Of a stretch of DNA of 64,000 nt, positions 32,892 through 63,271 are shown piece by piece. Origin of the DNA: Isoptericola luteus (GTDB taxonomy: Bacteria; Actinomycetota; Actinomycetes; Actinomycetales; Cellulomonadaceae); NCBI RefSeq assembly GCF_020297055.1, contig NZ_JAIXCQ010000003.1, positions 126,691-190,690 on the forward strand. The letters are read 5' to 3'. The position numbers and the translations under genes were made by a program. The first letter of the stretch is position 1, and each line of letters opens with the position of its first letter. The notes under the pieces were generated by a model. It was not told the DNA's origin. It ran no database searches and saw nothing but the letters and a program-made list of their open reading frames with translations.

Positions 32892-33092
32892 CGCCGAGAT
32901 AGAGAGGGTCTCACGCCGAGATAGAGAACCTCCCCGCCGAGATAGAGAACCCCGCCGAGACGCAAGGCGGACGAGGCCGCCGCGGCCTCGTCCGCCTCTC
33001 GGTGCCCGCCCTCTATCTCGCGGGTCCGCGTTCTCTATCTCGCGGGTCCGCGCTCTCTATCTCGCGGGTCCGCCCTCTCTATCTCGGCGAGG
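32892..33092. repeat. inverted array of 11-bp iterons around a central palindrome
   Basis: CGAGATAGAGA occurs three times on the left (32895, 32917, 32938) and its complement TCTCTATCTCG four times on the right (33010, with one mismatch, 33032, 33054, 33076), spaced 22 or 21 bp. The centre is a perfect 14-bp-arm palindrome (32966-32979 / 32983-32996). GCGGGTCCGC links the right-hand units. The whole can fold into one large cruciform. It lies between the ndh stop and the tRNA 5' end, so it may act as terminator or protein-binding array. Confidence 0.85.
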
Positions 33093-50195: not shown

Positions 50196-50254
50196 GCCGA
50201 GCACGGGGTCGGCCTCGGTACGGCGTGCCATACCGAGGCGACCCCGTGCTCGGC
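50196..50254. terminator. long hairpin after the DUF4190 gene
   Basis: Arms 50196-50220 and 50231-50254 pair over 24 bp with one bulged G, and the loop itself can pair GGC/GCC. It is downstream of the 50294-50986 gene and upstream of the xylanase promoter, so it isolates the xylanase from read-through. Confidence 0.8.
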
Positions 50255-50293
50255 ACGAGGGTGAACCGACGCACGAGAACGGGCGCGCGAGGG

Positions 50294-50986
50294 CTACTGC
50301 TGGGACTGGGCGAAGTCCTCGTACTCCGAGCCGTACGGCGCGTCCCAGTAGAGCTCCGTGCAGGACGCGGCGTCGCCCTCGGCGCAGGCGTCGTACAGCG
50401 CGTCGAGCTGCGGGTCGTCGCCGTACTGCTGCACGGACGAGTCGTAGGTGCCGGTGCTCAGGTCGTCGAGCACGCCCTGGCGGTCCATCTCGTTGAACAC
50501 CGCGACGCTGAAGATGATGAGCAGCGCCCAGCCGATGATGCTCAGCGCACCCAGCACGATGCCCGCGATCGCCAGCCCCTTGCCCGACTGCCCCGTGCGC
50601 TTGATGCGGTTGAGGCCCACGATGCCCAGGACGATCGGCACGACGGTCATCATGAGCACGCCCGTGACGAGCGCCGCGATGGAGAAGCCGTCGGTGCCCG
50701 CCGACGGCGGCGGGTACTGCCCGTACGGCTGCTGCGGGTTCGCGCCACCGGGGTAGCCCGGCGCCTGCGGGTAGCCGGGCTGCGAGTACGGCTGCTGCTG
50801 CCCCTGCCCGCCCGCGCCCTGCTGGTACGGGTCGGGCTGCTGGTACGGGTCCGCCTGGTACGGGTCCGGCTGCGTCGGCCCGCCGGGGCGGTCGCCGCCC
50901 TGCTGGTACGGGTCGTGCGCGTAGGGGTCGGACCGCGGCGTGGGCGGCTCGTACGGGTCCGGCTGCTTGCTGTCGTCCTGGCTCAT
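50294..50986 (-). CDS. DUF4190-domain membrane protein with DPYQ repeats
   Basis: 230 aa. Residues 1-95 are disordered and rich in Asp-Pro-Tyr-Gln repeats (DPYQQ, DPYQADPYQQ, GYPQAPGYPGG). Two hydrophobic segments (~100-125, ~140-165), with GLNRIKRTGQSGKGLAIAGI between, make the DUF4190 hairpin. The C-terminal ~60 residues are external, with DACAEGDAASCTELYWDAPYGSEYE, a motif seen in many actinobacterial proteins of this type and shared in part with the protein at 45189. Function unknown. Confidence 0.8.
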   Translation of the reverse strand: MSQDDSKQPDPYEPPTPRSDPYAHDPYQQGGDRPGGPTQPDPYQADPYQQPDPYQQGAGGQGQQQPYSQPGYPQAPGYPGGANPQQPYGQYPPPSAGTDGFSIAALVTGVLMMTVVPIVLGIVGLNRIKRTGQSGKGLAIAGIVLGALSIIGWALLIIFSVAVFNEMDRQGVLDDLSTGTYDSSVQQYGDDPQLDALYDACAEGDAASCTELYWDAPYGSEYEDFAQSQQ

Positions 50987-51171
50987 GGCCCGTCTGCTCC
51001 CTCGTCGCCCGTGCTCGTGTCGCGGGGCACCGTCGTGCCCACCAGGGACAACTATGCCCGAACCAGGGCCCTCGTTCCCCCGACTTCACCCGGCGCGGGG
51101 CCCGCGGCCCGTCCCCGGGGACGACGACGGCTGGCATCCTGACGGGACAGGTCGAGCACAGAGGGGGAAGG

Positions 51172-52377
51172 GTGCGCGTACTCGTCGTCGGCGCCGGGAT
51201 CATCGGTCTCGCCACGGCCGCGCGCCTCGCCCGCCGCGGCGACGAGGTCACCGTGGTCGACAAGGAACCGTCGCTCGCGAGCCACCAGACGGGCCGCAAC
51301 TCCGGCGTCGTGCACTCCGGCCTCTACTACGCCCCCGGGAGCCTCAAGGCCCGCCTCGGCACCGCGGGCGCGGCGTCCATGACGAGGTTCGCGGCCGAGC
51401 ACGGCGTCCGGGTCGCCACCACCGGCAAGCTCGTGGTCGCGTCCGACGCCGCGGAGCTGGACCGGCTCGGCGAGCTCGCCCGCCGCGGCGCCGCCAACGG
51501 CGTCCCGGTGCGCGAGGTCAGCCCCGTCGAGGCACGCGAGCACGAGCCGGAGATCGCCTGCGTCGGCGCCCTGCGCGTGGAGACCACCGGGGTGGTGGAC
51601 TACCGCGGCGTGTGCGACGTGCTCGCCGGCCAGGTGCGCGACGCCGGTGGCACCGTGCTGCTGGGCCGCGCGTTCGCCGGCGCCCGCACCGCCGGCGCGG
51701 GAGTGCGGGCCGTCGTCGCGGACGTGACCACCGGCGAGGAGCACGAGCTCGTGGCCGACGCCCTCGTGGTGTGCGGCGGCCTGCACGCCGACCGGCTGGC
51801 CCGTGCCTGCGGCGTCGACCCCGGTGCGCGCATCGTCCCGTTCCGGGGCGAGTACTTCGACCTCGCGCCCGACGCCGCACGCCGGGTGCGCGGCCTCGTG
51901 TACCCCGTGCCCGACGCGCGGTTCCCGTTCCTGGGCGTGCACCTGACCCGCGGCGTGGAGGGGGGCGTGCACGCCGGGCCGAACGCCGTGCTCGCGCTCG
52001 CGCGCGAGGGCTACCGCCGACGCGACGTCTCGCTGCGCGACCTCGCCGACGCCGGCACCTGGCCGGGGCTGTGGCGGCTGGCGGGCCGGAACCTCGTGCC
52101 GGGGGCCCAGGAGGTGGCGCGCTCGCTGTCGCGCACCCTGTTCGCGGCCGCCGTCGCCCGCCTGCTGCCCGGCACCACCGCCGACGACCTGCACCCCGCG
52201 CCCGCCGGCGTGCGCGCCCAGGCGCTGCGGCGCGACGGCGCGCTGGTCGACGACTTCCTGGTGCGCACCGCCCCGCGGCAGGTGCACGTCATCAACGCGC
52301 CGTCGCCCGCCGCGACCGCCGCGCTGGAGATCGCCCGGCACCTCGAGGCCGAGCTGGACCGGGTGCTGGCCGCCTAG
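51172..52377 (+). CDS. lhgO: L-2-hydroxyglutarate oxidase/dehydrogenase
   Basis: 401-aa FAD enzyme oxidising L-2-hydroxyglutarate to 2-oxoglutarate. FAD loop VVGAGIIGLATAARLARRG at ~5-23, then QTGRNSGVVHSGLYYAPGSLKA, the diagnostic LhgO motif, and FRGEYFDL mid-protein; the C-terminus has APSPAATAALEIARHL. GTG 51172 follows GGGGGAAGG. Its 3' end overlaps a convergent glycosyltransferase gene by 86 bp. Probably a housekeeping repair enzyme, unrelated to the lasso cluster that follows. Confidence 0.92.
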   Translation: MRVLVVGAGIIGLATAARLARRGDEVTVVDKEPSLASHQTGRNSGVVHSGLYYAPGSLKARLGTAGAASMTRFAAEHGVRVATTGKLVVASDAAELDRLGELARRGAANGVPVREVSPVEAREHEPEIACVGALRVETTGVVDYRGVCDVLAGQVRDAGGTVLLGRAFAGARTAGAGVRAVVADVTTGEEHELVADALVVCGGLHADRLARACGVDPGARIVPFRGEYFDLAPDAARRVRGLVYPVPDARFPFLGVHLTRGVEGGVHAGPNAVLALAREGYRRRDVSLRDLADAGTWPGLWRLAGRNLVPGAQEVARSLSRTLFAAAVARLLPGTTADDLHPAPAGVRAQALRRDGALVDDFLVRTAPRQVHVINAPSPAATAALEIARHLEAELDRVLAA

Positions 52378-53545
52378 ATCCCGCCACCGAGGCGAAGAGC
52401 TCGCCCAGCCGCGCGGCGACCTCGGCGTCGGTCGCGATCCCCGGGGTCCGGGCCGCGGCGACCGCCAGCCGGCCGCGCAGGCCGTCGTCGTCGCGCAAGC
52501 GGGCGAGGGCTGCCGTGAGGGAGTCGACGTCGCCCTGGTGGAAGACGAGCCCGTTGGCGCCGTCGGTCACCCACTCCGTCGGCCCGCCCGCGTCCGCGAC
52601 GACGGTGGGCCGCCCGAGCGCGAGGTACTGCAGCACGTTCTGACCCAGCGGCTCCGGCCGCAGGGACGCCTGGACGCACACGTCGAGCGAGGCGATCTGG
52701 GCGGCGACGTCGTCCACGTGACCGGTGAGATCGACGCGGTCCGCAACCCGCAGCTCGGCGGCCCGGCGACGCAGCCCGGCCACGTAGCCCTCCTCCCCGA
52801 ACTGGGCGGCACCGACCAGCCGCAGCCGGACGTCGGAGCCCGCGAACGCCCGCGCGAACGCCTCCAGCAGCAGCAGCTGACCCTTCCACGGCGCGAGCCG
52901 CGCGACCATGCCGACCGTGCGGACCGGACCCACCCGGCCGTCGTCGCGACCTTGCGCCGAGAACTCGCCGAGGCCGAGCGGGCTCTGCAGGACGAGCGCC
53001 GGCGTCCCGGGGCGCAGGTAGGGCCGTGCCGTGTCCAGCGTGGCCCGCGAGTTCGCCACCACCGCGTCGGCGCGGGGCAGCACGACACGCTGCAGCGCGA
53101 CCGCCCCGAAGCGCCCCGCACCCTCTGCCGTCACGAGGTCACGAAGATGGACGACGAACGCCTGCTCGCCCCGGCGCACGGCCAGGGCGCCGTACAGCGC
53201 CGCCCGTGAGGTGTTCGCGTGCACGACCTCGGCGGCGCGGAAGGCCGCCGTGGCACGCAGCGCCCGGGCCGTGCCGGCGACCGACGCGAGACCGCCCACC
53301 GCGCGGCGCAGCCCGGCGCCCTCGCCGAGCCCCGCGGGCTGGGCGGGCCCGACCGGGACGACCTCCACGCCGTGGTCGCGCAGACCCGCGAACGGGCCGT
53401 CGTCGCCGTCACCGTCCGACGGGAGGACGACGGTCGGCTCCCAGGGCGCCTGGGCCAGCAGCGTGCGCCGCAGCGCGAGCTCGGCCCCGCCGAACGCTCG
53501 CGAATGGTCGAGGTGGACCACGCTCGGAGGACGACCGCCGACCAT
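52292..53545 (-). CDS. GT4-family glycosyltransferase (lasso-cluster flank)
   Basis: 417-aa GT-B glycosyltransferase. Acceptor domain: VVHLDHSRAFGGAELALRRTLL, then VVHANTSRAALYG. Donor domain: GMVARLAPWKGQLLLLEAF and SLRPEPLGQNVLQYLALGRPTVV, the GT4 E-x7-E-like motif (second Glu replaced by Gln). The last ~35 residues are Arg/Pro-rich and overlap lhgO antisense. I chose ATG 53545 (AGGAG at 7 nt) over 53551. TTTCACCC boxes at 53594-53624 lie upstream. Sugar and acceptor unknown; it could tailor the peptide or an envelope glycan. Confidence 0.85.
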   Translation of the reverse strand: MVGGRPPSVVHLDHSRAFGGAELALRRTLLAQAPWEPTVVLPSDGDGDDGPFAGLRDHGVEVVPVGPAQPAGLGEGAGLRRAVGGLASVAGTARALRATAAFRAAEVVHANTSRAALYGALAVRRGEQAFVVHLRDLVTAEGAGRFGAVALQRVVLPRADAVVANSRATLDTARPYLRPGTPALVLQSPLGLGEFSAQGRDDGRVGPVRTVGMVARLAPWKGQLLLLEAFARAFAGSDVRLRLVGAAQFGEEGYVAGLRRRAAELRVADRVDLTGHVDDVAAQIASLDVCVQASLRPEPLGQNVLQYLALGRPTVVADAGGPTEWVTDGANGLVFHQGDVDSLTAALARLRDDDGLRGRLAVAAARTPGIATDAEVAARLGELFASVAGSRRPAPGPARPRGAGRSPARRSRRATAR

Positions 53546-53593
53546 CACCATTCTCCTGTCGCACAGAAAACTTGGGGTGGCACAAGTTCTTGC

Positions 53594-53624
53594 CGGGTGA
53601 AATGCGCCGGGACCGCGGGTGAAA
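53594..53624 (-). promoter_or_regulatory. TTTCACCC direct repeats upstream of the glycosyltransferase
   Basis: On the minus strand TTTCACCCG occurs twice (complement of CGGGTGAAA at 53594-53602 and 53616-53624), spaced exactly 22 bp. They lie 49-79 bp before the start at 53545 and point in the gene's direction. They match the GTTCACC unit of PHO boxes. Confidence 0.55.
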
Positions 53625-53684
53625 CGGAAAGCCCCCCGCCGACAATGGCGTCCGCGGCATTCACGAGAAGAATGCGCAGGGCGA

Positions 53685-53951
53685 CTACTTGCTCTCGCTC
53701 TCGAGGAGCAGGTCGCGGGAGCGCAGCTGCTCCAGGAAGTCGTCGACGTCACCGGCCGCGCGGGCCTCGTCGATCCCGTACTCGCCGACGAGCGCCGCCA
53801 CCAGGTCGCCGCGCTCCGCCCCGTCGACCAGCACCTTGGCGAGCAGGCTGCCGGCCGCGTTGGTGGTCAGGTAGGCGGAGGTCGAGAGGTCCAGGAGCAC
53901 GAGCTCACCGTCGATCTCCTGCCACGTGACGCCGTCCGACCGCATCTTCAT
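53685..53951 (-). CDS. PqqD-like RRE protein, lasso peptide B1
   Basis: 88-aa PqqD-fold RiPP recognition element: WQEIDGELVLLDLSTSAYLTTNAAGSLLAKVLVDG is the beta-hairpin plus the start of the helix bundle (shown as position ~10-44), followed by EYGIDEARAAGDVDDFLEQLRSRDLL. It should bind the leader of the precursor and hand it to the B2 peptidase. It is transcribed divergently from the precursor with a 185-bp gap. ATG 53951 has AAGGA at 7 nt; ATG 53945 is possible. Confidence 0.88.
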   Translation of the reverse strand: MKMRSDGVTWQEIDGELVLLDLSTSAYLTTNAAGSLLAKVLVDGAERGDLVAALVGEYGIDEARAAGDVDDFLEQLRSRDLLLESESK

Positions 53952-54017
53952 GTCCGCATCCTTCGCTCGCCCGTCACGTCGGCAAACTGATATGCCGCAC
54001 CAACGATCAAAGCACGT

Positions 54018-54068
54018 GTTCACCCGCGCGGACGCCCTCCGGGCGGAGACTTCACCCCCTTTTCAGCC
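54018..54068 (+). promoter_or_regulatory. TTCACCC boxes in the lasso precursor promoter region
   Basis: GTTCACCC (54018-54025) and CTTCACCC (54050-54057) point toward the precursor gene; a degenerate TTTCAGCC lies exactly 11 bp after the second (54061-54068). They are ~70-120 bp before the precursor ATG, within the 185-bp divergent gap, and belong to the motif family of this cluster. The palindrome CACGTG overlaps the first. Confidence 0.5.
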
Positions 54069-54136
54069 ACCGGTGCAGGGGGTCGCGGACCCATACTCAT
54101 GATGTCCATGTAGGAACACACGGAAGGACTTGTCCC

Positions 54137-54256
54137 ATGTACGAGTCACCGCGCATCACCGAGGTCGGCACCGTTCGCGACCTCACCCAGCAGAACCTCT
54201 TCCAGGGCCTCCACGACTCCGACGGCTGGATCCGTGGTGGCGAGAACTACTCCTGA
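54137..54256 (+). CDS. lasso peptide precursor (A)
   Basis: 39-aa peptide. The leader MYESPRITEVGTVRDLTQ has the conserved Y2-x2-P5-x-I7-x3-G11-x5-T17 pattern read by PqqD-like RREs. With Thr17 at the -2 position the core is residues 19-39: Gln19 to Asp27 (QNLFQGLHD) would make a nine-residue ring by an amide between Gln1 and Asp9, and SDGWIRGGENYS the threaded tail with bulky Trp, Tyr, Arg and Ile. The last residue is Ser, the site phosphorylated in kinase-type lasso peptides. ATG 54137 has AAGGA 8 nt upstream. The cyclase GTG lies inside the 3' end. Confidence 0.9.
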   Translation: MYESPRITEVGTVRDLTQQNLFQGLHDSDGWIRGGENYS

Positions 54257-55463
54257 TCTCGGGAGTGCCGCCCGGGGCTCCGTCGAGCCCCGGGCGGTTC
54301 GTCTGTCCGGGCCGGCCGGAGAGCCGTACCACCCCACCCCGCTGGAGGTGGCGTGGTCCTGGCTGCCCGGGGTCGAGCCGGACGCCGCCGTCCGCGCGGT
54401 CCCTCGCGACCCCCTCGACGTGCTCACCGACGTGCTGGCCCCGCACCTGATCGAGGGCCCGTGCTTCGTCGCGTTCTCCGGCGGGCGCGACTCGTCGGCC
54501 GTGCTCGCCGCCGCCGTCCGCGCCGCGCGGACCCTCGGCGCCCCCGACCCGGTGCCCGTGACCCTCACCTACCCGGGACTGCCCGCCACCGACGAGTCGG
54601 ACTGGCAGGAGCTCGTCGTGCGCCACCTGGGCCTGACCCGGTGGCTCCGCCTCGACGCGACCGGGCAGACCGAGATCCTCGGCCCGTCCGCGCGCGAGAG
54701 CCTGAGCCGCCGCGGCCTCCTGTGGCCGGCGACCATGCACACCAAGGACTTCCTGCTGAGCCGGATCGGCCCGGGCACCCTGCTCACGGGCGAGGGCGGC
54801 GACGAGGTCTTCTCCGCCAACCGCGTGCGCCCGTTCGCCGAGCTCGCCTCGCACCGCCGGCCCGACTCCGACCTCGCCCGCAGGTGCGCCCGCGCCCTCC
54901 TGCCCCGCGGCGCCCGCGCGGCCCGCGAGGCCGGCGCGCTGGCGCACGTCGCCCAACCGTGGGTGCACGCCGAGGTCCAGCGGGACCTGCACCACCGGAT
55001 CGCCGCCGACAACGCCACGGAGCCCCTGGCCTGGCACCGGGCCCTCGGCTGGGTCCGCGGGCGGCGCGTCGCCTCCGTGCTCGCCGCCACGCACTCCGCC
55101 ATCGGGCGGGAGCACGGGGTCGACGTCGTCGCCCCCCTGCTCGACCGCGGCTTCCTCGGCGCCCTCGTCGCGCGGCACCGCACGCTCGGGTACCCGTCAC
55201 GGCGGGCGGCCATGCACGAGGTCTTCGGGTCCGTCCTGCCGCGCAGCGTCGTCGAGCGCACCACCAAGGCGTACTTCAACCACGCCTACCTGGCCGACGC
55301 GACACGGACGTTCGCGCAGCAGTGGGACGGCTCAGGAGTGGACGAGGCGCTCGTCGACCCCGCGCTGCTCCGCGCGGAGTGGCTCGCCCCGACGCCGTCG
55401 GGCCTCAGCTCCCTCCTGCTCCAGCAGGCCTGGCTCGCCTCGACCTCGACGAGCCCGCGATGA
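54234..55463 (+). CDS. lasso peptide macrolactam synthetase (C), short asparagine-synthetase form
   Basis: 409 aa. Contains the ATP pyrophosphatase loop SGGRDSSAV (residues 82-90), TGEGGDEVF (185-193), VVAPLLDRGFLGAL and SVVERTTKAYFNHAYL near the end, all typical of the lasso cyclase/asparagine synthetase B domain that adenylates the ring Asp/Glu. Only ~75 residues precede the loop: the ~200-residue glutamine-amidotransferase-like domain of McjC-type cyclases is absent. Start GTG 54234 overlaps the precursor by 23 bp; other starts are further inside. It overlaps the B2 gene by ATGA. Confidence 0.88.
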   Translation: MVARTTPDLGSAARGSVEPRAVRLSGPAGEPYHPTPLEVAWSWLPGVEPDAAVRAVPRDPLDVLTDVLAPHLIEGPCFVAFSGGRDSSAVLAAAVRAARTLGAPDPVPVTLTYPGLPATDESDWQELVVRHLGLTRWLRLDATGQTEILGPSARESLSRRGLLWPATMHTKDFLLSRIGPGTLLTGEGGDEVFSANRVRPFAELASHRRPDSDLARRCARALLPRGARAAREAGALAHVAQPWVHAEVQRDLHHRIAADNATEPLAWHRALGWVRGRRVASVLAATHSAIGREHGVDVVAPLLDRGFLGALVARHRTLGYPSRRAAMHEVFGSVLPRSVVERTTKAYFNHAYLADATRTFAQQWDGSGVDEALVDPALLRAEWLAPTPSGLSSLLLQQAWLASTSTSPR

Positions 55464-55906
55464 CGGCCCGCGACGTGCTCCGCACGCTCCGCGTGACCGA
55501 GCTCCCCGAGCTGCTGCGCAGCACGTTCGTCGCCGCGCGCATGGAGCTGTGGCTGCGTCGCGCCCCGCTCGACGCCGTCGCCGGCCGGATGGGCGCCCGG
55601 CTGTGCCTGCGGGCCGCCCCCGAGACCGGCACCGCCGCGCTGGCGCTCACCGCCGCGGAACGGGCCCGGCTCGGCACGGCGCGGCGCGTCACCCGGCACT
55701 GGCCGTTCGGCGACACCTGCCTGCGGCGCTCCCTCATGACCGCGTACCACCTGCGCGACCGCGAGCCCGAGCTCTACGTCGGGGTCGCCAAGAAGGACGG
55801 CGAGGTCACCGCCCACGCGTGGCTGGTGGTCGACGGCGTCAACCTCGACCCGACCGGGTCGGCACAGTTCCAGACGCTCGAGAAGGCAGGGAGCAGGGCA
55901 CGATGA
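55460..55906 (+). CDS. lasso peptide leader peptidase (B2)
   Basis: 148-aa transglutaminase-like Cys protease that removes the leader. The triad is readable: Cys87 in FGDTCLRRSL, His119 in VTAHAWLVV and Asp130 in NLDPTG. Length and order match B2 (PF13471-type) enzymes that work with a separate PqqD-like B1, here at 53685. It is coupled by ATGA overlaps to the cyclase before it and the kinase after it. Confidence 0.92.
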   Translation: MTARDVLRTLRVTELPELLRSTFVAARMELWLRRAPLDAVAGRMGARLCLRAAPETGTAALALTAAERARLGTARRVTRHWPFGDTCLRRSLMTAYHLRDREPELYVGVAKKDGEVTAHAWLVVDGVNLDPTGSAQFQTLEKAGSRAR

Positions 55907-56907
55907 CGGATCGCCGGATGCTGTACGGGCTCGTCGTCGAGTCCGAGATCGACCTGCACCAGGACCGGGAGGCGCCCCCGGCGGGACCGCCGGACGTCGT
56001 CGTGGTGCGCGGCGACGACGTCGCGACGCTCGAGCCTCCGGACGGCCGGGTCCTCATCCGGCTCGGGGACGACGACGCGCCCCTGTACACGATGGTCGAG
56101 TCGCCGGACGGCGGGTACCTGCTGCGGTTCTTCCACGCCTGCGACGTCGCCGTCTCCGCCGACCTCTCCCGCATGACCGTGTCGCGGCACGTCGACGCCG
56201 TCCCCGGCCTCGAGGCCGTGCTGACGACGGGCGCGGCGCTGGCGTTCCAGCTCTACGCGCGCGGCCTGCTCGTGCTGCACGCGAGCGCCGTCCAGGTGGG
56301 CGACGCCAGCGTGGGCTTCGTGGGGCGCTCCGGGATGGGCAAGTCGACGATGGCGGCCCTGCTGTGCAGCGAGGGCGCGGGCTCCCTCATCACGGACGAC
56401 GTGCTGCGGGTCGACGTCCACGACGGCGAGCACGTGTCGCGTCTCGGGGCGACGGAGCTCCGCCTGCGCAAGGGCGCCGACGAGCTGAGCTCGCGCTTCG
56501 CCACGGGCACCCCGAACCGCCGCACCAGCGCCGACGCGCGACAGATCCTCGCCCCGGGCGCCGGTGCCCGGGACCGGGCCCCGCTGGCCGCCCTGGTCGT
56601 CCCCCTGCCCGACCGGGAGACGCACGAGCTCCGGCTCGAGCCGCTGACGGGCAAGGACGCCCTGCTGACCCTGCTGTCCTACCCGCGGCTGGTCGGCGTC
56701 GTCGACCCGGCGATCTCCACGGCGCAGCTGGCGCTCACCGCCGCCCTCGTCCGGGACGTCCCGGTCGTCGCCGCGCACGTGCCGTGGGGCCCGCCCTTCG
56801 CGCCCGACCTCGGCTCCCGGCTCGCCGAGGGCCTGGAGGCGATCACCGGGCGCCCGCTCGGGCAGCCCGCGCCGGCCCGCGCCGGGGCCGCGGCCTCACT
56901 GGCCTGA
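55903..56907 (+). CDS. HPr-kinase-like lasso peptide kinase
   Basis: 334 aa. The C-terminal half is an HprK/P-loop kinase: LLVLHASAVQVG (~122-133), Walker A GRSGMGKST (141-149) and ITDDVLRVDV (~163-172) with the catalytic Asp pair. The first ~110 residues form the N-terminal domain seen in lasso kinases of the PadeK/ThcoK type, which phosphorylate the C-terminal Ser of the precursor; this precursor ends in Ser. ATGA overlap with B2. Its stop overlaps the convergent ABC gene by 12 bp. Donor may be ATP; undecided from sequence. Confidence 0.88.
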   Translation: MTDRRMLYGLVVESEIDLHQDREAPPAGPPDVVVVRGDDVATLEPPDGRVLIRLGDDDAPLYTMVESPDGGYLLRFFHACDVAVSADLSRMTVSRHVDAVPGLEAVLTTGAALAFQLYARGLLVLHASAVQVGDASVGFVGRSGMGKSTMAALLCSEGAGSLITDDVLRVDVHDGEHVSRLGATELRLRKGADELSSRFATGTPNRRTSADARQILAPGAGARDRAPLAALVVPLPDRETHELRLEPLTGKDALLTLLSYPRLVGVVDPAISTAQLALTAALVRDVPVVAAHVPWGPPFAPDLGSRLAEGLEAITGRPLGQPAPARAGAAASLA

Positions 56908-58800
56908 CGTGAGGTAGGCGCTCGCCTGGAGTGTGAACATCTCGGCGTACTCGCCGCCGAGGGCCATGAGCTCGTCGTGGGTGCCCGACTCCACCACGCG
57001 GCCGCCGGCCATGACGTAGATCCGGTCCGCCGACCGCACGGTCGAGAACCGGTGCGAGATGAACAGGGCGGCCCGGCCCTCGAGCGTGGACCGCAGGGAC
57101 TCGAAGAGCGCATGCTCCGCGCGCGGGTCGAGCGCCGCCGACGGCTCGTCGAGGATGACGAGGGCGGCGTCGCGGTAGAAGGCCCGCGCGATGGCGATGC
57201 GCTGCCACTGCCCGCCGGACAGGTCGCTGCTCTCGGCGAAGAGCTTCGACAGACGGGTGTCGTAGCCGTGCGCGAGGCCGCCGAGCGCGTCGTCGATCCC
57301 CGCTGCCGCCGCGGCCCGGCGCACCCGGGCGTCGACCTGGGCCGCCCCGCCCGCTCCCCCCGCTGTGTCGGCGTCGCCCAGCGCGATGTTCTCCCGTGCG
57401 GAGAACGCGTACCGCACGATGTCCTGGAAGATCACCGCGATGCGCGCACGCAGGTCGGACGGCCGCACGTCGCGGTAGTCCACCCCGCTCCACGTCACGG
57501 TCCCGTCCGACGCCTCGTAGAGCCCGGCGAGCACCTTGGCCGCCGTCGTCTTGCCGGAGCCGTTCTCGCCGACGAGCGCCACGACCTCGCCGGGACCGAC
57601 CCGGACGGAGACGTCGTGCAGCGCGTCCCGTTCCGCCCCGGGGTAGCGGAACGCGACCGTGTCGCAGGCGACCCCCTCGAAGCGGTCGGGCAGCTCGCCG
57701 GTGCCCTCCTGGCTCCGGTCCGACCGGCCGAGCGCCATGAAGGCGTCCACGTCGTCCAGGTAGAGCCCGGACTCGAAGACCTGCTGGACGCCGCCGAGCA
57801 TCGCCTGGATCTGGCCCTGCAGCATCCGGATCGCCACGATGGCGGCGCCCGCTCCGGCGACGCTCACGTCGCCGGACGCGATGAACCACACGAGGACCAG
57901 CATCGTGAGGGTCAGGGTGAGGCCGCTGACCACCTGGCCCAGCACCGTGAGCCGGGCGCGGCGGCCGAGGTGCGCCCGCAGGTCGACGAGGTAGCGGTCG
58001 TAGAGGTCGCGGTAACGGCGGTACAGCCAGCCGGCCGTCTCGAAGGCGCGGACCTCCTTCGCCTCGTCCCTGCCCGTCGCGACCATGTTCACGTAGAACC
58101 GCTCGCGCTGGTTGGGCGTCTGGTCGAGGCTGAACGCGAACTCGAGCCTGCTCTCCCGCCGGCTCGTGAGGAGCAGGGGCGCCGCGCCGACGGCGAGCAG
58201 CGGGAGCAGCAGCGGGTGGATCGCGACGAGTGACGCGCCGACCCCGATGCCGGCGGCCACCGCACCGAAGAACGTGAACAGGCCCTGCGTCACCTGGAAC
58301 GGGCGGGACAGCGCGTTCGACTTGACCCGTTGCAGCCGGTCGAAGAACGCCGGCGACTCGAACCGGTGCAGAGGGACGCCTGTCGCGACCTCCTGGACCT
58401 CCTCGGTCATCACGCGCGCGACCCGCTCGCCCAGGAGCCGCCGCACCATCCCCTGGAGCGCCGTGATGATCGACGTCAGGGCCATGAGGCCGGCGAGCGC
58501 GGCCACGGGCCACACCAGGGTGGTGAACGACTCCCCGCTGCCCGGCAGCGCGATGATGGCGTCGAGCAGGCGGGCGACCACCAGCACCTGGCCCGCGAGC
58601 GCGGCCGCCGCGACGAGCTGCAGCACGACCATCGCGACGAACAGCCCGCGCCCGCTCTGCCACACCAGGGAGGTCGACCGCACGACGAGGCGCCGGAGCC
58701 TCCCGAGCGACTTGCGCTGCGACCTGGCGGCGCGGGCGATCACCGCGGGATCGCTCGGGTCGACCCGGTCGACCGGCTCGGACGTGCGGTGCTGCGCCAT
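56896..58800 (-). CDS. ABC exporter, lasso peptide D
   Basis: 634-aa fused membrane/ATPase half transporter. About six membrane helices (residues ~50-330) are followed by the ATPase with Walker A GENGSGKTT (411-419), Q-loop FQD, signature LSGGQ (527-531), Walker B LVILDEPSAALD (547-558) and H583. No C39 peptidase domain, consistent with leader removal by B2. The usual role is export and self-immunity. It is on the strand opposite the A-C-B2-K genes, tail to tail, with a TTTCACCC box at 58901-58909 upstream. ATG 58800. Confidence 0.9.
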   Translation of the reverse strand: MAQHRTSEPVDRVDPSDPAVIARAARSQRKSLGRLRRLVVRSTSLVWQSGRGLFVAMVVLQLVAAAALAGQVLVVARLLDAIIALPGSGESFTTLVWPVAALAGLMALTSIITALQGMVRRLLGERVARVMTEEVQEVATGVPLHRFESPAFFDRLQRVKSNALSRPFQVTQGLFTFFGAVAAGIGVGASLVAIHPLLLPLLAVGAAPLLLTSRRESRLEFAFSLDQTPNQRERFYVNMVATGRDEAKEVRAFETAGWLYRRYRDLYDRYLVDLRAHLGRRARLTVLGQVVSGLTLTLTMLVLVWFIASGDVSVAGAGAAIVAIRMLQGQIQAMLGGVQQVFESGLYLDDVDAFMALGRSDRSQEGTGELPDRFEGVACDTVAFRYPGAERDALHDVSVRVGPGEVVALVGENGSGKTTAAKVLAGLYEASDGTVTWSGVDYRDVRPSDLRARIAVIFQDIVRYAFSARENIALGDADTAGGAGGAAQVDARVRRAAAAAGIDDALGGLAHGYDTRLSKLFAESSDLSGGQWQRIAIARAFYRDAALVILDEPSAALDPRAEHALFESLRSTLEGRAALFISHRFSTVRSADRIYVMAGGRVVESGTHDELMALGGEYAEMFTLQASAYLTSGQ

Positions 58801-58900
58801 CGTCGCTCCATCACTTGCTGCGGACCGCCATGCTCGCTGACCACGGTATCCGCGCACGGCGCGGCGCGAGCCGTGCGAGCGGGCGATCCTGCGCCACCGG

Positions 58901-58909
58901 CGGGTGAAA
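58901..58909 (-). promoter_or_regulatory. TTTCACCCG box upstream of the ABC exporter
   Basis: CGGGTGAAA on the plus strand reads TTTCACCCG toward the exporter gene, 101 bp before its ATG. A single copy; no 11-bp partner is visible. It also lies 89 bp before the divergent PAP2 gene. Confidence 0.4.
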
Positions 58910-58997
58910 GTCGCCGCACGGCCCACGCGCGCTCGACGGCGTGGCGCACGAACGGTCATCATCGAGCCACGGACCCTCGGAGGCGAAGGAGGCCCTC

Positions 58998-59675
58998 GTG
59001 CACGCTGCATGGCCTCGCTCGGTCCACTACCGCGGCGCGCACTGGGCGCTGGTGGCCGCCGGCAGCGTGGCCGCCGTCGCCGTCCTGTACCTCGGGCTGG
59101 TCGTCTGGGAGACGGGCCAGCGGATCGACCACGGCGTCTACCTCGCCGTCCTGCGGACCGGGCCCGTGCTGGGACCCGTGGCCGGCGTCGTGCGGCCGTA
59201 CGCCCCGCAGGTGCTGCTGGTCGCCGCAGCGGTGCTCACGGTGCTCGCCCTGCGCCGCGGCCGCGTGCGCGCCGTGGTCGCGAGCGTGCTCGTGGTGCTG
59301 CTGTCGGTGCTGGCGACCTGGACCGTGCGCGACCTGCTGCCGCGCCCCGCCTACGGCCTCGACACCTTCGCCGAGAACGGCTTCCCCAGCGGCCACGTCG
59401 CGGCCGCGCTGTCGCTCGCGGTCGCGTGCGTCCTGATGTGGCCGTCGCCCGACCGTCGGCTCCCCGCAGTGGTGGGCGGCGGCGTGGCGGGCGCGACGGC
59501 GCTGGCGTCCGTCGTCGTGCACGCCCACCTGCCCGTGGACGTGGTCGGCGCCCCGTTCGTGGTGGTCGCGGTGTGCTGCGCGGTGCTCTGGGTGGTGCGA
59601 CCGCTCGAGGCGACCGCGGAGCTCAGCCGCCCGGGCCCGGGGCGAGCCGGGCGAAGTACTCCGCCCGGGCGGTGA
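58998..59675 (+). CDS. PAP2-superfamily membrane phosphatase
   Basis: 225 aa with six hydrophobic helices. The PAP2 signature is present as NGFPSGHVAAALS (motif 2, residues ~125-137) and VVVHAHLPVDVVG (motif 3, ~175-187). Such enzymes dephosphorylate lipid pyrophosphates or phosphatidate on the outer face. GTG 58998 is supported by AAGGAGG 5 nt upstream; GTG 58941 has none. It overlaps the convergent nucleotidyltransferase by 53 bp. It lies between lasso-cluster genes, but a role there is only conjecture. Confidence 0.85.
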   Translation: MHAAWPRSVHYRGAHWALVAAGSVAAVAVLYLGLVVWETGQRIDHGVYLAVLRTGPVLGPVAGVVRPYAPQVLLVAAAVLTVLALRRGRVRAVVASVLVVLLSVLATWTVRDLLPRPAYGLDTFAENGFPSGHVAAALSLAVACVLMWPSPDRRLPAVVGGGVAGATALASVVVHAHLPVDVVGAPFVVVAVCCAVLWVVRPLEATAELSRPGPGRAGRSTPPGR

Positions 59676-60819
59676 CGTCCGCGACGTCGCGCTGCAGCGG
59701 CCGCTCGGGGCTCCCGTCGGTGCCGCGCGCACGGTGCTGCCGCCCGACGCGGCGAGCACGCAGCGTGTACGCGAGGAGGCAGGCGGCGCTGGCCGCGGTG
59801 CCGGGCCGTGCCGCGCCGTAGACGTTCCCGCCGAGCCGGTCGTCCCCCGGCAGCCCGGGGAACGGGTGGTCGCGGTCCCGCCGTCGGGCGAGCGAGCCCC
59901 AGGCTCCGCGGCGCGCGCGGTCGAACGACGTGCCGTGCGGCAGCTCGAGCCCGACCGTCCGCACCGCGCGGTCCAGGACGAGGGCGACCGGGACGGTCGT
60001 CCGGGCGGCCGCGGCACGGCGCGCGAGCTCGTCCCAGTCGAACCCCGGGTCCTGGACGGCGTAGCGGACGTCGGCGAGCCACATGAGCCGGTTCGCGCCG
60101 TCCTGGGCCGCGTGGAACGCGACGTGGTGCACGGTGTCCACAGGGTCGAACGTCGGCATCGTGACCCCTGGCGCGATCGTCACGGGACGCGCCCGGCGCA
60201 GCATCCCGGCCATGTCCACCGGGAACTGACGGCGCAGCCGCTCGGGCACCGCGACGTGCCAGTGCAGGTCCAGGTGGGTGCCGTGCCGCGCCGTCATGGC
60301 GATCTCGGCGCGCATGCTCCTGCGGAGCTCGGGCCAGTTGCGGTCGAGCTGCTCGCCGCCGGTGGACAGCACCACCCGGATCGCCTCCTCGAACCGCGCG
60401 GCGTCCACGAAGAGGTCCAGGTCGTAGTACTCGCGCATGTCGGGCGAGGGCCAGACGACGGAGGCCAGGACGGGTCCCTTGGCCACCGCCCACGGGATGC
60501 CGGCCGCGTCGAGCGCGGCACCGGTGACCTTGAGGTCCTCGACGGCGCGCAGGTGACGCAGGGTCTGCGCGTGGCGTGCGGCGCCGAGCCCGGCGAGCCA
60601 GGGGTCCGGCGCGTCCGCCGCCGCGAGCGACCTCGCCATCGCCGGGGTGACCCGGTGCAGCACCCCGGCGGCGAGGACCCGGCCCAGGTCCTCGGCGAAC
60701 AGCTCGTCCGGGGCGTCGTGCGGCCGGCCCGCCGCGGCGTCCACCAGCAGGCGCGCGAGCGGACGCAGCCCGAGGGGGGCCGTGGCGCGGCCGGCACGGG
60801 TGGGAGCGCGCAGGGACAT
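59623..60819 (-). CDS. nucleotidyltransferase-family protein of lasso kinase clusters
   Basis: 398 aa, of the uncharacterised nucleotidyltransferase family (PF14907-type): helical N-terminus with LVDAAAGRPHD, then the active-site block WAVAKGPVLASVVWPSPDMREYYDLDLFVD (about 113-142) with the paired Asp, followed by HLDLHWHV and DTVHHVAFHAAQDGANRL. Homologues sit beside HprK-like kinases in lasso clusters; in pseudomycoidin such a protein modifies the phosphorylated C-terminus, as I recall. It could add a sugar or nucleotide to the Ser phosphate here. ATG 60819. TTTCACCC repeats lie just upstream. Confidence 0.8.
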   Translation of the reverse strand: MSLRAPTRAGRATAPLGLRPLARLLVDAAAGRPHDAPDELFAEDLGRVLAAGVLHRVTPAMARSLAAADAPDPWLAGLGAARHAQTLRHLRAVEDLKVTGAALDAAGIPWAVAKGPVLASVVWPSPDMREYYDLDLFVDAARFEEAIRVVLSTGGEQLDRNWPELRRSMRAEIAMTARHGTHLDLHWHVAVPERLRRQFPVDMAGMLRRARPVTIAPGVTMPTFDPVDTVHHVAFHAAQDGANRLMWLADVRYAVQDPGFDWDELARRAAAARTTVPVALVLDRAVRTVGLELPHGTSFDRARRGAWGSLARRRDRDHPFPGLPGDDRLGGNVYGAARPGTAASAACLLAYTLRARRVGRQHRARGTDGSPERPLQRDVADVTARAEYFARLAPGPGG

Positions 60820-60867
60820 GGGACGAGCATGCCCCGTCCCGTGGACGGCCGACCGCCGTCGCGCGGG

Positions 60868-60890
60868 TTTTCACCCTGGCGTCACCCGGC
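60868..60890. promoter_or_regulatory. TCACCC direct repeat, 11-bp spaced, near the nucleotidyltransferase start
   Basis: TTTCACCCTGG (60869-60879) is followed directly by CGTCACCCGGC (60880-60890): two 11-nt units, as in PHO boxes. They lie 49-71 bp before the nucleotidyltransferase ATG but in the opposite orientation, and at the 3' end of the preceding glycosyltransferase. Confidence 0.5.
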
Positions 60891-60900
60891 CGGGGCGGCG

Positions 60901-62040
60901 TCACCGGGCGGGGACGCCCGCTGCCCCGTAGAGCTTCGCGTAGCGGTCGCCGACGGCTCGCCAGGTGTAGGCCCCGACGGCCTGCCCGCCGGTCTCGCCC
61001 AGGCGACGGGCGAGGGCGTCGTCATCGAGCACCCGGCAGATCGCGGCGGCAAGTGCCGGCGTGTCCGCCGGGTCGACGAGCAGGCCGTTCTCGCCGTCGG
61101 CGACGAACTCCGGCGGGCCGCCGCGGGTGGTCGCGACGACGGGCACCCCGGCGCGCCAGGCCTCCAGCACGACGATGCCGAACGACTCGACACGGCTCGG
61201 CACGACGACGAGCGCGGCGGACCGCATCGCGGTCACCACCTCGGGGCGGGAGAGCCGCCCCGGCAGCACGACCCGCTCGCGCAGGCCGAGCTCGTCGGCA
61301 CGACGGCGCAGGCCCTCGCGGTCGGGGCCGTCGCCGGCGATCACGAGCGAGACCCCGCCGGGGTCGGCGTGCGCGTACGCGTCGACGAGCAGGTCGAACC
61401 CCTTGACCCCCACCATGCGGCCCACGGCGAGCACGTAGCGCCCGGGCAGCCAGGCGGGCCGCGGGGCGGCCGGTTCCGCGGGGTCGATGCCGTTGGGCAC
61501 GACGACGCCGCCCCCCGGCGTGAGACCGAAGCGGCGCACCAGGTCGTCGAGGGTGTACCGCGACGGCCCGGTCACGGCGGCGGCGCGGCGCAGCGAGCGC
61601 CGCAGCGCGGACGCGAGCAGCCGCGAGCGGTCGAAGACGCCGTGCGCGTCGGCGAACGTCTCGCCGTGCGAGCTGAGCACGAGCGGCACACCCGCGCGCC
61701 GGGCGGCCAGGTCCGCCCAGGGCCCGTTGGGCCCGTAGCAGTGCACGTGCACGACGTCGGGCCGGTCCGCGCGCGCGGCGGCCCGCCAGGCGCGCAGGGC
61801 GCCCGGGGCACCGGCGGCGAACCGGGCGAGCGCGCCGAGGTCGCGCGCCGGCATCGGGCACGGGAGGTAGCGCAGCCCGATGCCGTCGACCTCGTCGGGC
61901 GTCTCGTCCCCCTGGTCGACGGCCCACACGACCACGTGGTGCCCGCGGCGGCGCAGGTCGCGGGCCACGTGGAGCACGTGCTCCTCGACCCCGCCGAAGC
62001 GCGGCAGGAAGCTGCTCGTCACGAGCGCGACGCGGACCAT
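60901..62040 (-). CDS. GT4-family glycosyltransferase
   Basis: 379-aa GT-B enzyme: VTSSFLPRFGGVEEHVLHVARDLRRRGHHV at the start, VHCYGPNGPWADLAARRAGVP, SSHGETFADAHG, then donor-site VAVGRMVGVKGFDLLVDAY and SRVESFGIVVLEAWRAGVPVV with the E-x7-E motif. Closest in look to PimB/mannosyl or glycogen-type GT4 enzymes. ATG 62040 has the strong RBS AGGAGG. It runs into the nucleotidyltransferase gene (81 bp apart). Possible acceptor: envelope glycan or the modified lasso peptide. Confidence 0.9.
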   Translation of the reverse strand: MVRVALVTSSFLPRFGGVEEHVLHVARDLRRRGHHVVVWAVDQGDETPDEVDGIGLRYLPCPMPARDLGALARFAAGAPGALRAWRAAARADRPDVVHVHCYGPNGPWADLAARRAGVPLVLSSHGETFADAHGVFDRSRLLASALRRSLRRAAAVTGPSRYTLDDLVRRFGLTPGGGVVVPNGIDPAEPAAPRPAWLPGRYVLAVGRMVGVKGFDLLVDAYAHADPGGVSLVIAGDGPDREGLRRRADELGLRERVVLPGRLSRPEVVTAMRSAALVVVPSRVESFGIVVLEAWRAGVPVVATTRGGPPEFVADGENGLLVDPADTPALAAAICRVLDDDALARRLGETGGQAVGAYTWRAVGDRYAKLYGAAGVPAR

Positions 62041-62102
62041 GCAGCCCCCCTCCTGACCGGTGCACGGCCCGCAGATCATACGTAGCCCGGCGGCGGACCC
62101 GC

Positions 62103-62128
62103 CGGGTGAAGTCCGCCCGGTTCACCCG
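62103..62128. promoter_or_regulatory. inverted TTCACCC pair between divergent glycosyltransferase genes
   Basis: CGGGTGAA (62103-62110) and TTCACCCG (62121-62128) form an inverted repeat with a 10-bp spacer in the 175-bp divergent gap. Each copy points toward one of the two flanking glycosyltransferase genes, 63 and 88-95 bp from their starts. Confidence 0.55.
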
Positions 62129-62215
62129 CCGCTCGCCCTGGCCGTGGCGGGCCGCCGGGTCAGAATGGCCGGACGACCGGGCACCACGGTGGGACCGCAC
62201 GACGGACGGAGCAGC

Positions 62216-63271
62216 ATGGCACGACTGACGCTGGCGACGGTCGCCGTGGGCACGCCGATGGGTCAGCAGGTGTACGAGCGCGAGGTCGCGGCCCGGGCCG
62301 CGGGCGCACTGGGCGGCGACGTCGAGGTGACCCGCTCGGTCACGCGGTCGCTGCGCTCACCGCTGCCGGGGACGGCGCGCCTGCCGCACCGGCTGCTGCA
62401 CGACGCCCCCACGGGGCTGCGCCGGGTCGTGGGCGCCGCCATGTACCGCGGCGCCGACGTGGTGCACCGGATGGGCCTGTCCCTGCCGCCGGCCCGCGTG
62501 CCGGAGATCGTGACCGTGCACGACACGGTGGCGTGGCGGTTCCCGGACGAGTCCCGGCCCGAGACGTTCGCCGCGGCGGAGCTGCGGCGGGCGCGGGCGG
62601 TGGTCTCGGTGTCGCAGTTCGCGGCGGACGACGTCGCCGAGCGCCTGGGCCTGGAGCACGTGCACGTCATCCACAACGGTGTGGACGAGCGCCTGCTGGG
62701 TGCCCGCCCGGCGACGGCGGAACGGCTGCGCGAGCTGGGGGTCGAGGGCCCGTACGTGCTGCACGCCGGCGGCTCCTCGACGCGGAAGAACCTCGAAGCG
62801 CTGGCCGCCGCGTGGCCCAAGGTGCGCTCCCGCTTCCCCGACGTGTCGCTGGTGCTCGCCGGGCCGCCGTCGCCGCGGCGCGACCGGCTCTTCGGCCCCC
62901 TCGACGGCGCGGTCCGCGTCGGGCGCGTCCCGGACGAGGACGTCGCGGGCCTGCTCGCCGCGGCGTCCGCCGTCGTGGTGCCGTCCGTGTACGAGGGGTT
63001 CGGCCTCCCAGCCCTGGAGGGCCTCGCCGTCGGGACGCCGGTGGTCGCGGCGGCCCGGTCGTCGCTGCCCGAGGTGTGCGGGGACGCCGCGGTGCTCGTG
63101 GAGCCCGACGGCCCCTCGATCGCGGAGGGCCTCGAGCACGTGCTCACCGGCGGCGCCGAGGTGGACCTCCTCGTCGCGCGCGGCCGCGAACGCGCCGCAC
63201 GCTTCACCTGGGACGCGACGGCCGCCGCGCACGCCCGCCTGTGGCGTGCCGTGCTCGACGGCCGCCAGTGA
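62216..63271 (+). CDS. GT4-family glycosyltransferase
   Basis: 351-aa GT-B enzyme with LPPARVPEIVTVHDTVAWRFPD and VSVSQFAADDVAERLG in the acceptor half, HNGVDERLLG at the hinge, and HAGGSSTRKNLEALAAAWPKV plus PSVYEGFGLPALEGLAVGTPVV with the E-x7-E motif in the donor half. It resembles mannosyltransferases of the GT4 group (short, acting on polyisoprenyl-linked sugars). ATG 62216. Divergent from the other GT4 gene with a shared TTCACCC inverted pair. It is the last gene before the base composition changes. Confidence 0.9.
   Translation: MARLTLATVAVGTPMGQQVYEREVAARAAGALGGDVEVTRSVTRSLRSPLPGTARLPHRLLHDAPTGLRRVVGAAMYRGADVVHRMGLSLPPARVPEIVTVHDTVAWRFPDESRPETFAAAELRRARAVVSVSQFAADDVAERLGLEHVHVIHNGVDERLLGARPATAERLRELGVEGPYVLHAGGSSTRKNLEALAAAWPKVRSRFPDVSLVLAGPPSPRRDRLFGPLDGAVRVGRVPDEDVAGLLAAASAVVVPSVYEGFGLPALEGLAVGTPVVAAARSSLPEVCGDAAVLVEPDGPSIAEGLEHVLTGGAEVDLLVARGRERAARFTWDATAAAHARLWRAVLDGRQ

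Follow-up and report, generated by a model that had tools for sequence, protein, structure and literature searches.

A helix-phased TTCACCC element, probably an activator site, upstream of cell-surface polymer and lasso peptide genes in Isoptericola and allied genera

Published work describes the PHO box of Streptomyces as direct repeats of GTTCACCC (PMC7244524), the site of mycobacterial PhoP as a repeat with a strict 4-bp spacer, equivalent to an 11-bp period (PMC4832192), and SARP sites as heptamer repeats with 4-bp spacers located 8 bp upstream of the −10 element, with a GTTCACC region also being bound by AfsR (PMC7040171). Here, a different repeated heptamer, TTCACCC, was analyzed, which recurs in the short gaps of a lasso peptide and glycosyltransferase block within a 64,000-nucleotide stretch of Isoptericola luteus (contig NZ_JAIXCQ010000003.1, positions 126,691 to 190,690; hereafter the window). 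Judging from its sequence context, TTCACCC, better written as (T)TTCACCC, is likely the binding unit of one activator of a cell-surface regulon in Isoptericola and allied genera. With comparable confidence, the predicted regulon comprises the exopolysaccharide priming sugar transferase, glycosyltransferases, sugar-nucleotide genes, secreted proteins, and lasso clusters. The units, their phasing, the preferred distances to −10-like hexamers, the neighboring genes, the conservation of the element, and its difference from the PHO box were all computed.

The window contains 14 copies of TTCACCC versus 3.3 expected, a number reached in none of 100 shuffles. The four copies before position 50200 are all coding, whereas our own gene caller places each of the 10 copies at 50200-62200 in intergenic DNA, which corresponds to 10 copies in 1131 intergenic bases versus none in the 5083 intergenic bases of the earlier part of the window. 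A sequence-only reading of the window had reported eight copies in the gaps before transcription units, mostly directed toward them. All eight are present (seven lie one base to the right of the reported position, and 62121(+) is exact), and seven of them face the next gene within 400 bp. The same is true for 9 of the 10 block copies, with 60870 aiming away, although several copies lie between divergent genes, making this orientation count weak evidence by itself. The reported spacings are also correct, namely, a 22-bp pair at 53595/53617 and an 11-bp pair formed by TTCACCC at 60870 and GTCACCC at 60881. The claim that copies elsewhere occur only inside genes held for those at 11180 and 25275, but four copies had been overlooked, two of them coding (11616 and 41007) and two intergenic (50259(−) and 51085(+)). 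Likewise, the proposal that one shared element precedes the lasso and glycosyltransferase genes stands with respect to direct-repeat units on one helix face, but not with respect to a phosphate PhoP box, and the motif, while present in the lasso block, is not specific to it: it continues beyond the end of the window, where an exopolysaccharide cluster follows, and is found again at other places on the contig.

Genes were called by our own script on 410 kb of the window's contig (C20), comprising the window and additional fetched stretches. In this piece, 30 of 67 TTCACCC copies are intergenic, although only 10% of the sequence is; the corresponding count for the reversed word is 7 of 17. One of the 30 copies (396341) lies within the signal peptide of pstS, the start of which was miscalled, and was excluded from later counts. 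With 30 occurrences versus 3.9 expected, TTCACCC is the top intergenic 7-mer by z-score after words of a AGATAGAG-type repeat family and poly-C. The copies are concentrated in a dense stretch at C20:176.9-219.1 kb, which extends from 50.2 kb of the window to ~28 kb beyond its end and holds 16 copies in 3552 intergenic bases versus 13 in 37387 elsewhere (limits chosen after data inspection). This stretch consists of the lasso cluster and a glycosyltransferase/polysaccharide cluster, the names outside the window being assigned by eye; therefore, the element marks a region of surface-polymer genes that encloses the lasso cluster.

The spacing of the repeats was analyzed in a genus set of 18 genomes, including the window's own, in which the genus was inferred to be Isoptericola and allies. 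Pairs of the form TTCACCC-N(1-31)-TTCACCC occur 122 times in this set, with at least one pair in each genome, versus six for the reversed control. Only 5 of the 31 possible offsets, 11 bp (11 pairs), 12 bp (25), 21 bp (21), 22 bp (21), and 32 bp (8), account for 86 of these pairs, which are phased on one face of the DNA. The loci fetched for such pairs (L112-L216, four of which belong to other genera of the family) contain 89 distinct phased clusters, 85 of them intergenic according to our gene caller. No favored spacing was detected for inverted pairs, though few such pairs are present, and a third, middle unit within the 22-bp pairs, sought by eye, was found only at C20:346076. Of the 38 genomes searched, the window's own among them, 14 have the strict 22-bp pair; they represent 4 of 21 genera, all from one family. 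Outside this family, 13 of 30 examined loci are coding, and TTCACCC repeats precede a sugar transferase gene (615 bp away), a pyruvyl transferase gene, and a gene for an SdrD_B surface protein, which hints at a broader distribution of the regulon within Micrococcales. At two loci from another family of the order, L287 and L289, three to four TTCACCC/TCACCC units with an 11-bp period are located before genes for secreted proteins; the L287 protein has an SdrD_B domain, and that of L289 looks similar.

The position of the element relative to candidate promoters was determined by searching for TANNNT downstream of the unit nearest to the gene. Where TTCACCC faces the gene (61 cases), this hexamer occurs at 29 bp in six cases and at 40 bp in six, with two or fewer at any other offset, while for GGGTGAA facing the gene (64 cases) it occurs at 45 bp (10 cases) and 46 bp (14), again with two or fewer elsewhere. 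The 29, 40, and reversed peaks stem from 4, 4, and 11 gene families, respectively. Promoters of lasso precursor and transporter genes in the relatives have AATACT or AACACT at 40/41 bp, which falls outside the TANNNT count. A gene-blind count over 320 distinct TTCACCC copies, from loci that were chosen for pairs and include orthologues, produced peaks at 61 (15 copies), 40 (15), 39 (8), and 29 bp (7); the same copies in reverse produced peaks at 46 (17), 45 (17), and 58 bp (11), the average being 1.6 per offset. As a control, nine permuted 7-mers, with copy numbers ranging from 11 to 193, yielded three or fewer at any offset.

In the most likely mechanism, monomers would bind one or more TTCACCC units, spaced approximately one turn apart so as to share a helix face, and would contact RNA polymerase from gene-facing stations located 29, 40, and 61/62 bp from the −10 element, or from a turned-round site at 45/46 and ~58 bp. 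The displacement of the reversed site by about half a turn (45/46) would be expected for an asymmetric monomer. Since the stations lie upstream, we infer activation rather than repression; a single protein presumably carries it out. The element is best read as the putative operator of an undescribed cell-surface regulon and probably an activator site. Among the papers listed for TTCACC, TTTCACCC, and GGGTGAAA with their context, none was recognized by title as describing a regulon of this kind, titles alone being weak evidence of absence. A more specific proposal, to which we assign slightly less than even weight, is that an undescribed actinobacterial cell-surface master activator recognizes an asymmetric 7-8 bp site in a two-orientation, helix-phased code (facing 29/40/61, reversed 45/46/58) and switches on lasso clusters and exopolysaccharide synthesis together.

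Several observations weigh against the activator reading. Offsets of 12 and 21 bp are multiples of 3, and coding repeats could inflate those classes. As many as 12 of 25 reversed promoters belong to the same transferase, and the peaks include orthologous promoters. Moreover, a TANNNT hexamer at a favored offset is absent in most promoters, being present in 16 of 61 facing cases (28-29 and 39-41 bp) and 24 of 64 reversed cases (45/46 bp); for many of the promoters without a hexamer, the box presumably serves the other of two divergent genes. In favor of the reading, a held-out set of 21 intergenic copies on the window's contig outside such pairs fits more often than random intergenic positions do. 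In this set, TANNNT occurs at exactly 29, 40, 61, or reversed 45/46 bp in two copies, compared with a rate of 1.2% at the random positions (p = 0.03), [TC]ANNNT at these strict offsets in six (p = 1e-4), and a hexamer within a wider offset set in eight (p = 2e-4), the wider allowed offsets and the looser hexamer having been set after the contig's own sites were seen. In the window, the copies at 54051, 58902, 60870, 62104, and 62121 fit the wider set, and 54019 lacks a fitting hexamer but lies at the distal end of an array in which the nearer units have one, while 50259, 51085, 53595, and 53617 have no hexamer at an allowed offset. A search for the regulator among the 11 Trans_reg_C proteins in the genome gave no candidate with a box pair in the 220 bp upstream of its gene; two of these genes, one of regX3/phoP type (L305, at −188) and one of mtrA type (L307, at −136), have a single upstream copy, and no [TC]ANNNT is found 20-89 bp behind the GGGTGAA of the latter. 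Finally, in a lasso set assembled independently of the motif, with the B1 protein as a query (28 loci from named organisms), 10 loci, including that of Cellulosimicrobium, have no intergenic copy within 3.5 kb.

In the same lasso set, all nine loci from Isoptericola and Krasilnikoviella have TTCACCC within 150 bp of the B1 gene and, at one of the allowed offsets from it, a −10-like hexamer; eight of the nine are from genus-set genomes, so that the data overlap, though their selection was independent of the motif. Among the other 19 loci, a copy is accompanied by a fitting hexamer in three from Actinotalea, two from Occultella, and one from Luteimicrobium (the fit in Luteimicrobium is weak, and in several of these six the copy is >1 kb from B1), and three have copies without a fit. 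The loci without a copy, some of which end at contig ends, are from Microbacterium (three), Gryllotalpicola, Propionicicella, Cellulosimicrobium, Georgenia, Occultella (one), and two metagenome-assembled genomes. With the box in nine of nine Isoptericola/Krasilnikoviella loci and a patchy occurrence elsewhere, it is therefore a feature of the lineage rather than of lasso clusters in general. The lasso cyclase, used as a query of genome contigs, found no relative. A second lasso-like precursor type (MYQRPTIAVVGSVRGMT...QACKYG...) was observed at three loci (L120, L130, and L172), divergent from an ABC transporter gene; these share a 21/22-bp TTCACCC pair, and a −10-like hexamer lies 40/41 bp away toward the transporter and 45 bp away toward the precursor.

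The commonest neighbor of the phased boxes is the exopolysaccharide priming transferase gene, with 18 of 128 target entries at 14 loci and a representative scoring above the TIGR03025 cut-off; its promoter has two GGGTGAA units. Other targets, each assigned from one representative by Pfam or NCBIfam, include DUF2530, an epimerase, a PAP2 phosphatase, lasso B1, and a WbsX glycosyltransferase, as well as GDP-mannose dehydratase, a phytase-like/GDPD protein, a pectate lyase, an MHYT protein, and secreted proteins; lasso precursors were placed among the targets by position. Most of the 85 boxes (48) are located between divergent genes, and target assignment is therefore often ambiguous; of the remainder, 15 are directed toward a single gene, 17 are directed away from one, and 5 are without a nearby gene.

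As for the identity of the regulator, mycobacterial PhoP governs envelope components rather than phosphate, and a second PhoP-like response regulator in this genome (C20:366228-366962, L310) is its close homologue, which makes it the best-motivated candidate; that it acts on the TTCACCC arrays is nonetheless unlikely in our estimate. Its best PDB match is mycobacterial PhoP (E = 1.9e-87), the relationship being homology by sequence match. In its recognition helix, five of the six base-contacting residues named for mycobacterial PhoP (PMC4832192) are identical, and the sixth is changed from Val to Ile. The mycobacterial site TCACAGC also shares TCAC with TTCACCC. However, the motifs diverge after TCAC (CC versus AG), the strict 11-bp period of mycobacterial PhoP conflicts with the offsets of 12, 21, 22, and 32 bp that dominate here, and the L310 gene has no box within 220 bp upstream.

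Somewhat less probable still is the identity suggested by the sequence-only reading, namely, that the boxes are PHO boxes of the phosphate regulator PhoP/RegX3 and that low phosphate induces phosphate-poor surface polymers together with lasso genes. The TTCAC core is common to both kinds of box, a 22-bp pair precedes a phytase-like gene at four loci (with phytase-like and GDPD domains in the tested one, L119), and one PstS-like gene (L171) has a mixed-type box, GTTCACCCGGCATTCACCC. In addition, pstS-like genes with GTTCACCC at 11 bp were found in two genomes from other families of Micrococcales, one assigned by Pfam (L276) and one by eye (L281). In contrast, the genus has a separate PHO box: all 15 of its pstS promoters have GTTCAY-N5-GTTCAY, in which each core follows a G and the two units are 11 bp apart, and all 15 have TANNNT 37 bp from the second TTCAY, a distance seen in 1 of 61 facing cases of the arrays, whose peaks are at 29/40/61 and 45/46 bp. 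The base preceding TTCACCC in the arrays is G in 35 of 171 units and T in 81, versus G in 15 of 15 second pstS units (Fisher p = 5e-10), and array spacing is not strictly 11 bp, an offset found in 11 of 122 pairs as opposed to 75 at 12, 21, 22, or 32 bp. Even the phytase-like genes have the array register, with TATGTG, TATGGG, or CATGGG at 40 bp (by eye). The earlier PhoP assignment is thus not supported: the genome has a separate box at pstS, which across the genus differs from the arrays in the base before TTCAC, in spacing, and in −10 distance.

In the window's genome, a RegX3/PhoP-type gene is located directly upstream of pstS, with GTTCACTCGTCGTTCACCT between them. A scan for the PHO pattern, requiring G and the 11-bp spacing, retrieved 49 matches in the 18 genus genomes and none in the control. 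All 30 of the PHO-pattern loci examined are intergenic, with 10 at Pit genes, 10 at PstS-like genes (nine by sequence check and L245 by position), and one (L256) at a Na/Pi cotransporter gene; at one further point of overlap, locus L270, the PHO pattern coincides with a TTCACCC array. Targets of the arrays, by comparison, are mostly surface-polymer and lasso genes, the exceptions being the phytase-like/GDPD gene at four loci and the one PstS-like gene. The genus was thus observed to possess a clear PHO regulon (pstS, Pit, and the Na/Pi cotransporter; L253 and orthologues) with a highly conserved pstS promoter, which is useful as an internal Pho control. At the four phytase-like loci (L112, L116, L119, and L127), a phytase-like domain is followed by a GDPD domain in one protein (only L119 was tested, and it is clipped by the locus end), and the gene adjoins that of an MFS-type transporter (by eye), the 22-bp TTCACCC pair being conserved.

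A SARP/AfsR-type regulator reading repeats of a TCA-containing heptamer is highly improbable. Spacing of 22 bp is known for SARPs. Heptamer repeats with 4-bp spacers and the binding of a GTTCACC region by AfsR (PMC7040171) also resemble the boxes. However, SARP repeats lie 8 bp upstream of the −10 element, whereas the nearest favored unit here ends 22 bp upstream; the spacings of 12, 21, and 32 bp do not fit; and no SARP-like protein was noticed on inspection of the 11 Trans_reg_C proteins, the BTAD domain not having been searched. Chance or codon usage, by which TTCACCC would merely be common in a GC-rich genome where TTC and ACC are favored codons, has a negligible probability: the genome-wide excess over the reversed word (403 versus 130) recurs in 57 of the 58 genomes searched, the window's own among them, and coding copies make up 37 of the 67 in the contig piece, and the raw excess therefore proves nothing, but codon usage leaves unexplained the intergenic block copies, their helical phasing, their conservation at orthologous promoters, and the preferred −10 distances.

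The features of the block are collected in the table, in which gene starts and −10 hexamers are predictions. In the lasso cluster (53685-58800), the genes for the precursor, B1, B2, and cyclase stand side by side, with B1 and the transporter on the strand opposite to the precursor, cyclase, and B2; the divergent B1/precursor layout was also observed in several relatives. A phosphorylating lasso cluster would in addition have an HprK-like kinase gene in the operon, for which the candidate at 55903-56907 gave HprK matches below the cut-off only.

Table. Genes, TTCACCC units, and predicted −10 hexamers of the lasso and glycosyltransferase block (window coordinates)
Feature	Position	Strand	Basis or remark
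TTCACCC	50259..50265	-	intergenic, absent from the sequence-only list; no gene start within 200 bp
TTCACCC	51085..51091	+	intergenic, absent from the sequence-only list; upstream of gene 51172-52377; no -10-like hexamer at allowed offset
FAD-dependent oxidoreductase-like gene	51172..52377		judged by eye
Glycosyltransferase (GT group 1), presumed target	52292..53545	-	Pfam
TTCACCC	53595..53601	-	proximal unit of 22-bp pair facing glycosyltransferase 52292-53545; no -10-like hexamer at allowed offset
TTCACCC	53617..53623	-	distal unit of 22-bp pair
Lasso B1, PqqD-like, between two box groups	53685..53951	-	Pfam; NCBIfam lasso_PqqD_Strm 52.6 bits, below cut-off of 70
TTCACCC	54019..54025	+	lasso precursor promoter, distal unit; next unit 32 bp away
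TTCACCC	54051..54057	+	lasso precursor promoter, middle unit; 41 bp from CATACT
TTCAGCC	54062..54068	+	degenerate third unit, 11 bp further; 30 bp from CATACT
CATACT	54092..54097	+	predicted -10, lasso precursor operon; three relatives have AATACT at 40 bp
Lasso precursor (39 aa), presumed target	54138..54257	+	open reading frame; precursor-like open reading frames at same place in relatives; no family match
Lasso cyclase, Asn_synthase family	54348..55463	+	Pfam
Lasso B2 protease	55460..55906	+	NCBIfam NF033537, above cut-off
HprK-like kinase candidate	55903..56907	+	weak, all below cut-off: Hpr_kinase_C 5e-4, HprK_rel_B 5e-5
ABC transporter, presumed target	56896..58800	-	Pfam
TACCGT	58843..58848	-	predicted -10, ABC transporter gene
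TTCACCC	58902..58908	-	faces ABC transporter; 60 bp from TACCGT
PAP2-family membrane phosphatase	58998..59675	+	Pfam
Nucleotidyltransferase NTP_transf_5, presumed target	59623..60819	-	Pfam
CATGCT	60826..60831	-	predicted -10, NTP_transf_5 gene
TTCACCC	60870..60876	+	GGGTGAA toward NTP_transf_5 gene 59623-60819; 45 bp from CATGCT; followed by GTCACCC at 60881
Glycosyltransferase, presumed target	60901..62040	-	Pfam
TATGAT	62075..62080	-	predicted -10, glycosyltransferase 60901-62040
TTCACCC	62104..62110	-	faces glycosyltransferase 60901-62040; 30 bp from TATGAT
TTCACCC	62121..62127	+	faces glycosyltransferase 62216-63271; 40 bp from CAGAAT
CAGAAT	62161..62166	+	predicted -10, glycosyltransferase 62216-63271
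Glycosyltransferase, presumed target	62216..63271	+	Pfam

Another intergenic repeat, (CGC)CGAGATAGAGA, was observed as direct copies ~21-22 bp apart at ~32897-32960 of the window and elsewhere on the contig, with copies at C20:82623 and 159587; poly-C runs aside, no intergenic word of the contig is stronger.

The analysis turned a motif from one window into a testable genus-wide regulon with promoter rules that are precise to the base pair. Lasso peptides share a control element with exopolysaccharide genes, and the tempting PhoP label for this element is unsupported. If true, such joint control suggests that lasso peptides belong to surface or biofilm physiology, not to a separate antibiotic program. 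Should the promoter rules prove correct, finding one activator could allow silent lasso clusters to be turned on, and the exopolysaccharide promoter is a ready bait for it.

Among described systems, the PHO box and PhoP regulon of Streptomyces, along with their pstS, Pit, and Na/Pi counterpart in this genus, resemble the arrays in the TTCAC core, the direct repeats, and the position upstream of the −10 element; the PHO box of the genus differs from them in the G before the core, the 11-bp spacing, the −10 element at 37 bp (pstS), and its phosphate transporter targets. The mycobacterial PhoP repeat, TCACAGC-N4-TCACAGC, has in common with the arrays the TCAC core, the direct repeats, and envelope targets, but has a strict 4-bp spacer and a different second half. 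SARP/AfsR repeats are similar in their heptamers, in spacings of multiples of ~11 bp, and in the link to secondary metabolites, and differ in being located 8 bp from the −10 element. Sites of MarA/SoxS/Rob-type monomers are likewise asymmetric, with an orientation tied to promoter distance; they have another sequence and belong to another phylum, and their likeness to the TTCACCC arrays is one of grammar only.

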